Positions 17,070-63,475 of a DNA stretch of 64,000 bases are shown here, piece by piece; the first letter of the stretch is position 1; each line of letters opens with the position of its first letter. The notes under the pieces are model-generated. The model was given only the letters and a program-made list of their open reading frames with translations, had not been told where the DNA came from and did no database searches. Both the position numbers and the translations under genes were made by a program. This DNA is from a virus, in the IMG/VR virus record IMGVR_UViG_3300030098_006179, positions 82,773 to 146,772 of that record. One strand, given 5' to 3'.

Positions 17070-17412
17070 TATTATCTATAAAATCTATTATTGTTTTTGG
17101 TTTTCTGGACGTTTTGCCTTTGGGGCCAAGAACCTTATCCCCTAAAGTATACTTCTTTTTTTCTGGTAAAGCAAGCCTAAAAAGGCTTTGTTGTTTATAT
17201 AGAAACTTTAAGCCGTCTTTGGTTAAAAACCAAGCTAGTGAATTTAATTTAAAATCTAATTTTAAAGAAGTAAAAAAATTATCATCTTGAAATTTATCAA
17301 AAAGCTTTTTGGCTATAGCAACCTCTCTTCTCCATCCGGGAACCTTTAAGGATTTTGGATCTTTTAAAAACCTTTCAACAAATATTTGATACTTATTCTT
17401 CTTTCTGGGCAT
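17047..17412 (-). CDS. Conserved-looking small protein between gmd and recA, unknown
   Basis: A 121-residue protein with a basic N-terminus (MPRKKNKYQIF) and an acidic tail (DFIDNNEEENEN). A WRREVAIAKKLFDKFQDDNFF helix is in the middle and a KYTLGDKVLGPKGKTSRKP loop near the end. It overlaps gmd by 20 nt and recA by 23 nt, so it is almost certainly translated from the same mRNA. The charge arrangement suggests DNA contact plus a partner-binding tail, but I do not recognise it. Confidence 0.7.
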   Translation of the reverse strand: MPRKKNKYQIFVERFLKDPKSLKVPGWRREVAIAKKLFDKFQDDNFFTSLKLDFKLNSLAWFLTKDGLKFLYKQQSLFRLALPEKKKYTLGDKVLGPKGKTSRKPKTIIDFIDNNEEENEN

Positions 17413-21106: not shown

Positions 21107-21948
21107 AATGGACTCTCGTGTTCTAGAATTTGAGAGATTTGTTTTGTCATTTTTTCTTGTTTTTTAAAGTTAAAATCTTTAGACAGAAAGGATTCTATTG
21201 AATTTATTAGCGGGGATTTGAATTTTATGTCTATTCTTTGATTATTAAATTTTAAAACCTGAGTTACGTCATCCCAATATAGGAAACCCTTTTCAAACTC
21301 AAAAATACAATCCCTATCTTTCTTTCCATAGTACCAGCTTGAATTTATTTGAACTAACGTGCCCCCAAAATCCAATAGCCCTATTGCGCTATCGCTTTTT
21401 ACAGAATTTTTGTTTCTTTTATAGTTTATCCATAAAGTTTTAGATGGCATTTTTTCCAAAACGTGAAGCATAATACTAACGTCGTGAGACGATAAGTCAT
21501 ATCTAGCGTTAACGTCTTTTCTTTCTGGCCCCATGTTTAACCTGTTCATTGTAACGCTTAATAGCTTTCCGTATTGTTTTGATTTACATATAGACTTTAT
21601 AAATTTAACATGATCGTTAAAAGTAAAAATCCAATCTACGAATAATTTTTTCTTGTTATTTTTTGCAATTTTATATAAATGTTCTGTTTCTGTGTAGGAT
21701 GCAGTTAATGGTTTTTCGCAAAAAACATTTGAACCAGAATTTAAAAAATGATAACAAATTTCATAATGCCTGCTTGTGGGAACGCATACGAATACATTTT
21801 TGCATTCAATATCTTGATAGTTTTTAACTATGTTTTTTTCTTTACAAAAGGGGTCGCAAATTATTACATCATCTACATTTAAACTTTTTAGATTATTGTG
21901 TACAACTTTACCCCAATATCCATATCCAATAATGGCCATTTCATTCAT
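21103..21948 (-). CDS. Gfo/Idh/MocA-type sugar dehydrogenase
   Basis: A 281-residue NAD-dependent oxidoreductase. The nucleotide-binding N-terminus is [10 protein letters not shown]. The [14 protein letters not shown] strand is followed by the family's NVFCEKPLT motif, with the catalytic Lys. The second domain has [12 protein letters not shown], matching the conserved HDxD-like segment. It is paired with an N-acetyltransferase (4-nt overlap) and shares the island with DegT aminotransferases, as in WbpB/WbpE/WbpD-type routes that oxidise, aminate and acetylate UDP-sugar C3. That pathway is an inference from content and order. Confidence 0.85.
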
Positions 21949-22394
21949 TTTGCGGGAACTCCTTTGACTAGCGTATTGTCAGGAACGTCTTTTGTAACGA
22001 CTGAACCTGCTCCTATTATACAATTATCTCCAATATTTACTGGAAGTATGGTGGCGTTAGATCCTATTCTTACGTTATTTCCTATTTTTGTTTTTTTCAT
22101 TTTCCATTCTTTGAATTCCTTTGAGTCGGTAAATAAATCATTAACAAACATTACTCCATGAGCAATGAAACAATTTTCTCCAATCTCCACTCCAGAACAT
22201 ATAAAAGAATGACTGCTTATTCTGGAATTTTTTCCTACGCTTGACCCGCTTTGAATTTCTACAAATGGACCTACAAATACTCCATCTTTTAATTCGCATT
22301 CATATAAATTGCACGGCTCTATGAGAGAAATATTTTTTCCAAATTTACATTTTAAAAAAAATAATCTAAATAATTTTCTGACCATTTTTATCAT
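21945..22394 (-). CDS. Left-handed beta-helix sugar O/N-acetyltransferase
   Basis: A 149-residue hexapeptide-repeat protein. Repeats such as [32 protein letters not shown] and [14 protein letters not shown] give the left-handed helix; [17 protein letters not shown] is the usual C-terminal coenzyme A segment. It most resembles WbpD/WlbB-type 3-amino-sugar N-acetyltransferases, and the catalytic His is probably in [12 protein letters not shown]. It overlaps the dehydrogenase gene by 4 nt and the large multidomain gene by 29 nt. Confidence 0.85.
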
Positions 22395-61730: not shown

Positions 61731-61902
61731 GTGTTGATTCTTCTTTTATTAATTTTTTTAACTCGTTTAAATGGAACACCATCCAGCTTTCTCCAACGCT
61801 TTTAGAGGCTTCGTGTTGTTTAATCATTTGTTTTTTATATTGAAGGTCATCAAACTGAGCCTTTTCTATTATTTGATCTAACATTTTTAAACTTTTTTTC
61901 AT
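61720..61902 (-). CDS. Small helical protein, unknown
   Basis: A 60-residue, mostly helical, charged protein (LKMLDQIIEKAQFDDLQYKK, SWMVFHLNELKKLIKEE). It overlaps the dNMP kinase gene as ATGA and the 51-residue gene by 11 nt, which supports translation. Function unknown. Confidence 0.6.
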   Translation of the reverse strand: MKKSLKMLDQIIEKAQFDDLQYKKQMIKQHEASKSVGESWMVFHLNELKKLIKEESTHEE

Positions 61903-62573
61903 TCTTCGTCCCTTAAATAATTTTCTTTATCAATAATATAGTTAGCAAGGCCCTCTTCAAAAATGAATTGATGAACCCATCCCTCTAATTTCTTTTCAAC
62001 CTCAATCATGTTCCCTTCTATTGTTGGCCACTCAATAACGGCGTCTGCCGCAGCTTTAAGCTTGGGGTCTTCTCTCTCCTCTTCTGAATTGACGGGAGGC
62101 CTGAATACCTTGGTTTTTCTAGACTTACCTTCTAGTAGCTTCATTTCGTACTGAGAAACATGACATAGCGTTCCGTTCATTAATTTTTTAAGCCAGTAAA
62201 TTTCGTCTTGTTTGTACTGGTCGTACCTAATATCAGTGACCACAATTAAAGTGTCCTCATCAAGCTCTTTGTTTTTGATGTCTTTTTTTATTATTTTATT
62301 TAATTCTCTGGTGAAGTATTTACCATCGGTAAGCTTTCTTTTATGGGTTCCATGAAAAACTAAGAGATCTCTAATGGATTCCTTTTCTTCTCTATTACAA
62401 TTAAAAAGATCTATCTTATAATGACGCTTGCAAAAAGGATTAACCTCAAGCTTTAGCTTATCAGCTAAAGCATATCTTTTACATTTAACATATCTAGACA
62501 AGATAGTATAAAATAAATCTTTTCCTGCTCCGGCGACTCCGGATACTCCTATAACTTTATTGGGGATTTTCAC
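61899..62573 (-). CDS. Deoxynucleoside monophosphate kinase-like
   Basis: A 224-residue P-loop kinase starting at GTG 62573. The P loop is GVSGVAGAGKDLFYT, similar to phage T4 gp1 and related dNMP kinases. DTLIVVTDIRYDQYKQDE is the second acidic strand region, and FRPPVNSEEER may form the lid. It would make dNDPs or dNTP precursors, together with the RNR and dCMP deaminase. It is the first gene of the block that leads to the sigma factor, and lies next to the gene-free structured region. Confidence 0.85.
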   Translation of the reverse strand: MKIPNKVIGVSGVAGAGKDLFYTILSRYVKCKRYALADKLKLEVNPFCKRHYKIDLFNCNREEKESIRDLLVFHGTHKRKLTDGKYFTRELNKIIKKDIKNKELDEDTLIVVTDIRYDQYKQDEIYWLKKLMNGTLCHVSQYEMKLLEGKSRKTKVFRPPVNSEEEREDPKLKAAADAVIEWPTIEGNMIEVEKKLEGWVHQFIFEEGLANYIIDKENYLRDEE

Positions 62574-62640
62574 TTAAAAAATTATATATTCTAAATTAAA
62601 CACAATTAAAAAATTTTGCAAGTTATTTATATAATAATAT
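62574..62640. other. AT-rich gene-free stretch
   Basis: Almost only A and T between the dNMP kinase start and the structured region. It has many TATAAT-like hexamers on both strands, for example around 62630-62650, so it may hold a promoter for the kinase gene or for the RNA, or an easily melted origin element. Confidence 0.35.
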
Positions 62641-63030
62641 TATATTATTCGTGTCTACATCTTTTTCTTAAGCAATAAAGACAAGTACCCCCACTGGGGG
62701 AGTACTGTATTTATGTGTCCAAACTTTTCTTGAAGCCCTGTGATTTTTTATTGATGGGACATTCAACGACACAATACTGACAGATATATAATCTGTGATA
62801 GCCTACCATATAGGCGAGAGAGACTGTGCTCAAAAACTCTGCTTACGACTATCTACCGCTACACAACGGGTAATTCATGGTAATTAACCATGCGTCTTTT
62901 GTTCTCGCGTATTTGTACGAGAGGCTGTCCCTTGATACGGAAGTAAGCCAGCTTCCACCTTACTGTGTTCAGTCATCTCAGGCAAACTCCACTGTTTTCT
63001 CTCAGCGAGCTTAAAGGTTTTCCTTTTTCA
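62641..63030. ncRNA. Candidate structured RNA (or origin), unassigned
   Basis: The region has no convincing gene. By hand count GC is about 35-45 percent, against about 30 in neighbouring genes. Helices include 62684-62688/62702-62706 continuing as 62689-62692/62697-62700, the nested pairs 62714-62719/62768-62773 with 62730-62734/62762-62766, then hairpins 62781-62795, 62801-62815, 62854-62872, 62876-62892 and 62903-62922. GGAAG/CTTCC (62939-62943/62952-62956) crosses TAAG/CTTA (62944-62947/62959-62962), a possible H-type pseudoknot. It does not look like tRNA, tmRNA or RNase P. The strand is undecided because the helices are nearly symmetrical. An origin is the main alternative. Confidence 0.55.
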
Positions 63031-63043
63031 TACTTTGGGATCA

Positions 63044-63475
63044 TTATAGGTCGTTGTCAAGCTCTTCTTCGGATTTTAAATTAATTCCAGCTAATACAAT
63101 TAAGTCTTTTATATTGTTGGCAGTTATGTTTCCAGCATCACAAACAGACTCTTTTACATTATATTTTTCAGCAGCATCATTAACAACATGTGCTATAGTT
63201 ATAGCTAATTCGTAATCTATTTCAACTTTCTGAGGCATACTCTCTAGTGGTCTTTCAAGCACCCAAACTCGTCTTTTTTGCTTTTTATAATCTACTTCTT
63301 GACTTTGAATTATTTCATATTTTTCTAAATTTTTTAAAGCACACAAAACAGAAGCTTTATCTCTTTCTTCGTCTCCGGATACAATTACTAATTTTAAAAA
63401 GTCTTGTTCAAGACAAAAGGAATCATTCGAGCTAAACCATTCGTATAGTTTTAATGATGATTCTAATACATTCAT
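63044..63475 (-). CDS. Possible winged-helix protein, unknown
   Basis: A 143-residue protein. Residues about 1-75 (LKLYEWFSSNDSFCLEQDFL, DKASVLCALKNLEKYEIIQS, KKQKRRVWVLERP) have the helix-helix-wing order of winged-helix DNA-binding domains; the second half is helical. A regulator is possible but not proven. It starts 5 nt after a TAATAT hexamer and is divergent from dCMP deaminase. The structured region lies directly downstream. Confidence 0.5.
   Translation of the reverse strand: MNVLESSLKLYEWFSSNDSFCLEQDFLKLVIVSGDEERDKASVLCALKNLEKYEIIQSQEVDYKKQKRRVWVLERPLESMPQKVEIDYELAITIAHVVNDAAEKYNVKESVCDAGNITANNIKDLIVLAGINLKSEEELDNDL

Follow-up and report, generated by a model that had tools for sequence, protein, structure and literature searches.

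A gene-free gap in the window, by which we mean the whole stretch of 64,000 nucleotides analyzed here (bases 82773–146772 of a 162,379-base IMG/VR virus record), holds the predicted gene of a structured RNA that we call RNA-A. The shape of this RNA is kept while its letters change in at least 40 related uncultured phages, so RNA-A very probably has an undescribed job in infection. With somewhat better than even confidence, we read RNA-A as a free-standing gene of a new class, whose product would act in trans as a ribonucleoprotein with the neighboring protein p143 and carry a switch near its 3′ end.

Results

Genomic Setting and Homologues

By the gene map of the window, the gap measures 470 nt (62574–63043) and separates a kinase gene from the gene for p143 (Table 1). 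A preliminary description had called this the only large gap. It is the largest within the window, but the record contains larger ones elsewhere, of 1138 nt (with two tRNA genes) and 1053 nt (with a tmRNA gene). In total, the record encodes a tmRNA of its own and three tRNAs; ARAGORN detected no tRNA gene within the window. The gap is indeed GC-richer than its surroundings, with 42% at 62700–63099 compared to about 30% on either side and a window mean of 33%. Single-sequence folding gave a weak signal (z = −1.2 on the plus and −2.2 on the minus strand), so that proof of structure had to come from homologues. Elsewhere in the window, positions 17393–44888 form a mostly minus-strand run of ~30 genes, many of which resemble nucleotide-sugar or glycosyl-transfer enzymes by their first residues.

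Related loci, 80 altogether, were gathered via the ribonucleotide reductase gene 3.5 kb from the gap, the product of which is less than 60% identical to that of any deposited phage. A single-sequence nhmmer search matched the minus strand of the gap at E < 1e-10 in 29 of these loci, three of them on the opposite strand relative to ribonucleotide reductase. Iteration of nhmmer raised the set to 31 sequences, window included, and scanning with a pattern of the best-conserved stretch brought the total to 40 distinct members from IMG/VR phage contigs. The conserved profile is 363–382 positions long. Searches with blastn using the elements of the window, L083, and L051 did not find RNA-A in 50,697 deposited phages, and one exact-pattern scan of 84,980 bacterial and archaeal species gave no convincing match. 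Nine pattern matches from that scan are attributed to chance; their likeness is confined to about 20–35 nt around the pattern. We also discarded "Acinetobacter phage MD-2021a" as the nearest relative. Around nrdA, bases 92840–119308 of this record (CAKLQF020000011.1) contain nuoA–G and further housekeeping genes, and the record looks like a bacterial chromosome labeled as a phage. At six loci (L094, L064, L008, L069, L091, and L100), RNA-A is relocated away from p143 and lies after a gene of ~160–172 codons and before one of ~115–123 codons.

Table 1. Features of the RNA-A Locus (Window Positions) and Examples of RNA-B (Locus Positions)
Feature	Coordinates	Strand	Evidence
dNMP (deoxynucleoside monophosphate) kinase gene	61899–62573	−	left neighbor of the gap
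RNA-A gene as conserved, P1 foot to R2 end	62646–63030	−	nhmmer, 40 members
R2, second repeat copy, beyond the hairpin	62646–62673	−	R1–R2 similarity; single in record
P14, CCCCC/GGGGG hairpin with U-rich tail, terminator-like	62674–62706	−	96.7% paired; one-sided variation only
R1, first repeat copy	62707–62735	−	includes 3′ side of P11 (62714–62719)
P12 hairpin and H-type pseudoknot CCC/GGG (PK3)	62736–62767	−	pair 62765–62752 at E = 0.07; PK3 96.8% paired
P strand (5′ side of P11)	62768–62773	−	complements R1 within phages; none of 5000 permutations equally good
P10, hairpin ACAGAU/AUCUGU	62780–62796	−	two pairs at E < 1/30; three pairs 38/40 paired
P7, long-range helix	62847–62853/62797–62803	−	99.5% paired; two-sided changes
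P9, inside P7	62806–62814	−	
P8, inside P7	62837–62840/62818–62821	−	100% paired; two-sided changes
PK2, crossing helix	62894–62897 with 62821–62824	−	97.2% paired; two-sided change in 3/4 pairs
P5 hairpin	62876–62893	−	99.5% paired; two-sided change in 6/6 pairs
P4, hairpin UCUCG/CGAGA	62903–62922	−	MFE fold and inspection
P3 domain with interleaved pseudoknot	62931–62982	−	compatible changes, 12 members of this form
P3 helices	GUAAG 62959–62963/CUUAC 62943–62947; GGAAG 62952–62956/CUUCC 62939–62943	−	
P2 stem-loop, most conserved primary sequence	62984–63013	−	91% paired; two-sided change in 6/9 pairs
P1, hairpin AAAGG/CCUUU, 5′ end	63013–63026	−	by eye, window and several homologues
p143 gene, 143 aa, winged-helix protein, proposed partner	63044–63475	−	mostly beside RNA-A/RNA-B; AlphaFold2 pLDDT 93; generic winged-helix matches
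−35-like element TTGACA	63055–63060	−	TTGAC at matching place in most members
RNA-B examples	L011:5208–5632, L056:5208–5629, L007:6491–6851, L012:4919–5344		18 further loci

Structure and Covariation

The preliminary description had proposed covariation as a check, and this check came out strongly, beyond shuffled and slid controls and a tree-aware null. In the core alignment (A3: 36 members, 24 pairs in six helices), the pairs are 99.3% paired, and 183 cells contain two-sided compensatory changes, compared to 58 after shuffling and 15–26 when the pairing partners are slid by 1–3 positions. The corresponding covariation scores are 0.607, 0.235, and at most 0.14. The slid controls favor the structure somewhat, since it was partly derived from the same sequences; the counts of two-sided changes are independent of this derivation. 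A second alignment (A1) is 94.7% paired, with two-sided changes in 26 of 42 pairs. In a tree-aware G-test written for this analysis, with 30 simulated alignments as the null, eight pairs were unreached by any simulation and two more had E of 0.07 or less. These pairs fall in P5, P7, P10, P12, and the crossing helix PK2 (62896 with 62822; consensus ARAC/GUYU). Compensatory changes beyond both kinds of control characterize a structured RNA.

The comparison establishes P2, P5, P7, P8, P10, and P11 as predicted conserved helices. It likewise establishes two predicted pseudoknots, one in which PK2 joins the loop of P8 to the foot of P5, and one formed by CCC/GGG close to the 3′ end. The boundaries first assigned to the structured region were borne out, with the RNA on the minus strand, though. 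Of the two nested helices described earlier, 62714–62719/62768–62773 is real and corresponds to P11, as the match between R1 and P within phages attests. Its partner at 62730–62734/62762–62766 gives way to P12, in which covariation pairs 62765 with 62752 instead. The suspected pseudoknot at 62939–62962 also stands, because two helices interleave there and both vary compatibly in the 12 members of that form. The 5′ domain occurs in two alternative forms among the members, one of them with this interleaved pseudoknot. A GGCU/AGCC pseudoknot in the P3 domain was rejected; it fits no better than GUAAG/CUUAC, with which it cannot co-form. The variable 5′ domain and P4, as drawn for the window sequence, are less certain than the other parts.

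Strand, Promoter-like Elements, and 3′ End

The helices P5, P7, and P10 contain about 57 G–U cells but only 2 A–C cells. Since G–U pairs would read as C–A mismatches on the other strand, this bias points to the minus strand as the predicted functional RNA, as do the promoter-like elements. In most members, TTGAC is followed 15–17 nt on by a TAnnnT-like hexamer and then by the foot of P1, at a nearly constant position. The promoter score is on average moderately above that of shuffles (10.4 vs 9.2, with a standard deviation of 0.95 per sequence). In the window itself, the −10 box at the expected spacing is poor, and a TATAAT at 63043–63048 is too near TTGACA to partner it. At the other end, the CCCCC/GGGGG hairpin is followed by a U-rich tail (62674–62687) that resembles a terminator. 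The main transcript of RNA-A probably spans 62685–63030. R2 falls beyond this transcript if the GGGGG hairpin truly terminates it.

Repeat R1/R2 and Strand P

On either side of the GGGGG hairpin, RNA-A carries a segment of ~25 nt: R1 in front and R2, nearly a copy of R1, behind. The similarity between R1 and R2 is 13.9 within a phage, 7.9 across phages, and 6.5 after shuffling, which makes the repeat phage-specific. R1 carries one additional base in the first half, and R2 additional bases in mid-segment, in nearly all of the alignments that we examined. Such systematic length differences imply that the copies are not simply homogenized. The pairing of P with R1 was equaled in none of the 5000 permutations. 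Complementarity between P and R2 is weaker (p = 0.0015 in one test and 0.03–0.11 in another) and partly follows from the likeness of R2 to R1.

Several other roles for the repeat were tried and rejected. R2 is not a hairpin with a terminator tail, as it alone folds no better than shuffles (mean z +0.4). A genome-wide promoter or binding motif is opposed by the lack of further good copies in the window and by R2 being single in the whole record. Phased DNA operators do not fit a spacing that ranges from 52 to 70. A tiny dyad in R has weak support (p = 0.003 and 0.013), and besides P we found no convincing further co-evolving partner of R inside RNA-A.

The Neighboring Protein p143

The p143 gene is found at nearly every RNA-A or RNA-B locus, upstream of the RNA on the same strand and mostly 12–60 nt away. 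The protein is not recognized by named protein families. Its AlphaFold2 model consists of a winged helix followed by C-terminal helices (mean pLDDT 93), for which Foldseek returned generic winged-helix matches, none below E = 0.001 in the PDB. Within an alignment of 48 relatives (A2), three members weakly match the replication-initiation family phrog_1408 (best E 0.0035). One p143 protein had no match in deposited phages, and single-protein scans with p143 or the sigma factor gave no relatives. The gene neighborhood suggests that p143 may bind RNA-A as a ribonucleoprotein partner. Two RNA-B loci with room for p143 have no recognized copy. Conversely, L017:6378–6776 (also L019 and L057) carries p143 with neither RNA-A nor RNA-B at the locus, and RNA-A is absent from the whole 142-kb record of L017. 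Such loci may have lost the RNA or carry one of a third type.

A Second RNA after p143

At 22 loci without RNA-A, p143 is followed by a different conserved region, RNA-B, which is noncoding, spans about 420 nt, and has its own promoter-like elements and signs of covariation. The two RNAs occur together at no locus. We found no sequence similarity between them and no Rfam match for RNA-B (L011). The idea that RNA-A is a divergent RNA-B was dismissed, as the covariance model of the RNA-A core matches nothing in RNA-B loci. RNA-B appears at more than one place in a simple tree of p143, which carries no support values. RNA-B contains two copies of a 12–15 nt segment, R1B and R2B, near-identical within a phage and different between phages. 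A strand upstream of R2B complements both (p < 0.001 for R1B and about 0.01–0.02 for R2B, from 12 sequences and with no correction for the windows scanned). The spacer of R2B is usually 4–5 nt longer than that of R1B. RNA-B resembles RNA-A in its place after p143, its promoter-like elements, and its one P and two R segments with a longer R2 spacer. Genes for tmRNA were seen at L126:1537–1959 (record bases 21537–21959), L012:4068–4484, L011:20152–20578, and L033:829–1248; the one in L012 lies directly between p143 and RNA-B.

Discussion

Proposed Function and Alternatives

How might RNA-A work? In the reading that we prefer, a sigma70-type promoter would drive RNA-A from the minus strand. Transcription would begin near 63030, where P1 has its foot, and stop near 62685, at the CCCCC/GGGGG hairpin, or after R2 (62646) upon read-through. 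The RNA would function in trans, forming a ribonucleoprotein together with p143. The presence of one P and two R segments in RNA-A and RNA-B alike suggests strand exchange, in which P would pair with the second half of R1 or with that of R2. This exchange of partners and the accompanying refolding could be triggered by reading past the hairpin, by processing, or by protein binding. A more ambitious version, which we hold tentatively and would not bet on, is a two-part phage machine in which a winged-helix protein works with an interchangeable large RNA built on at least two unrelated scaffolds, with the guide-like strand P and its two possible partners, R1 and R2, as a strand-exchange device. 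We know of no described counterpart to an RNA device of this kind.

An unlikely alternative is a cis-acting leader, with RNA-A as the 5′ UTR of a dNMP kinase/sigma-factor operon and as a riboswitch or attenuator that operates through the GGGGG terminator hairpin. A promoter, a structured RNA, a terminator-like hairpin, and a co-directional next gene in 33 of 40 members, window included, are what such a leader would display, and strand exchange beside a terminator resembles attenuation. A leader should, however, always lie upstream of its gene and on the same strand, and the other seven members have a convergent next gene, which ends 3–33 nt from the profile match. This arrangement implies that RNA-A is often stand-alone and that a leader function cannot be general; in these members it shows the predicted RNA to be independent of the downstream gene. 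Furthermore, the downstream gene varies, several members place the RNA elsewhere or, with respect to ribonucleotide reductase, on the opposite strand, and R2, located after the terminator, comes too late to affect it. The preliminary description had also mentioned a replication origin. Winged-helix folds are common in initiators, a few p143 members weakly match phrog_1408, and R1 is nearly a copy of the DNA that directly follows the terminator-like hairpin. The transcript could then serve as a primer, for example by annealing of R1 to the template at R2, with p143 as the initiator; T4 primes from R-loops at origins (PMC3016281). We regard this scenario as improbable. GC skew has no turning point beyond gene orientation, its local minimum falling where the genes switch strand; the fold match of p143 is generic; and the systematic length differences between R1 and R2 are unexpected if the repeat serves annealing only. 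R1B and R2B of RNA-B are about 200 nt apart, with no evident U-tailed hairpin ahead of R2B. As the main reading, the origin lacks support because the helices tolerate G–U but not A–C, as expected of a strand-specific RNA, and because promoter-like and terminator-like signals of its own bound the element. A primer-RNA role for RNA-A may exist.

By analogy with ROOL and GOLLD, RNA-A might instead be an RNA-only homo-oligomer or cage in which P of one molecule pairs with R2 of the next. Phage origin, a dense pseudoknotted structure, and frequent stand-alone position have a precedent in these RNAs (PMC12286853), and a single P together with two copies of R would allow chains or rings to form. RNA-A is only about half as large as ROOL or GOLLD, however, the window has no tRNA gene, and a conserved protein gene adjoins the RNA, so we give this reading little chance. 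Least probable by far is a small coding gene or a chance structure in an unusual gap. Short frames do exist, such as one of 45 aa at 62877–63014 on the plus strand, the conservation of which had been named as a possible objection to a structured RNA. This frame is not conserved: it is full-length only in L100, with long partial counterparts in a few others, and the longest frames among homologues range from 18 to 85 aa. Covariation above all shuffles refutes both coding and chance.

Large phage RNAs like ROOL and GOLLD lack an explanation, to our knowledge. A smaller new class with dozens of homologues, a regular protein neighbor, and an unrelated second RNA that can occupy its place offers a handle on their role. 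The shared partner and the common P/R1/R2 layout narrow the function to the common ground of RNA-A and RNA-B, and the alignments and covariance model would allow RNA-A to be searched in metatranscriptomes.

Comparison with Known RNA Classes

By the tests described here, RNA-A is not ROOL, GOLLD, OLE, tmRNA, a conserved coding region, or a product of chance. Rfam has no gathering-score match in the window. Covariance models for ROOL, GOLLD, and OLE gave no match up to E = 5 in the gap or in the well-conserved homologue L003, and at lax thresholds Rfam produced only chance-level matches for three sequences. Membership in the ROOL/GOLLD group, which had been suggested earlier, is thus not supported, given the lack of an Rfam match and the difference in size. 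Covarying homologues without an Rfam match do support the other suggestion, that of a new class of large RNAs encoded by phages. A survey of 104 structured RNAs includes marine and cyanophage motifs (PMC2864571); none of those present in Rfam matched RNA-A. The literature compared consisted of open-licence papers, and it is possible that RNA-A is described elsewhere.

The tmRNA (RF00023) is similar to RNA-A in length, contains pseudoknots, and is found in the same phage group. Neither ARAGORN on the window nor Rfam, however, detected a tRNA-like domain or tag frame in RNA-A, and this phage has a separate tmRNA elsewhere in its genome. ROOL is, like RNA-A, a large pseudoknotted RNA from phages and prophages with unknown function. 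It measures 659 nt in the solved example, is often near tRNA islands, and has no identified protein partner (PMC12286853); RNA-A, at about 350–385 nt, adjoins the gene of a winged-helix protein. GOLLD shares with RNA-A that it is large, structured, and phage-encoded, and it too was reported from a marine metagenome; many examples exceed 800 nt, with conserved 3′ and variable 5′ regions (PMC12286853). RNA-A falls short of the roughly 600–800 nt or more that characterize ROOL, GOLLD, and OLE, but may work like the first two. OLE RNA, as described in PMC12286853 and PMC12054373, is about 600 nt long, occurs mostly in Bacillota extremophiles, and works with dedicated proteins. With different partners, it provides the model for reading RNA-A and p143 as a ribonucleoprotein.
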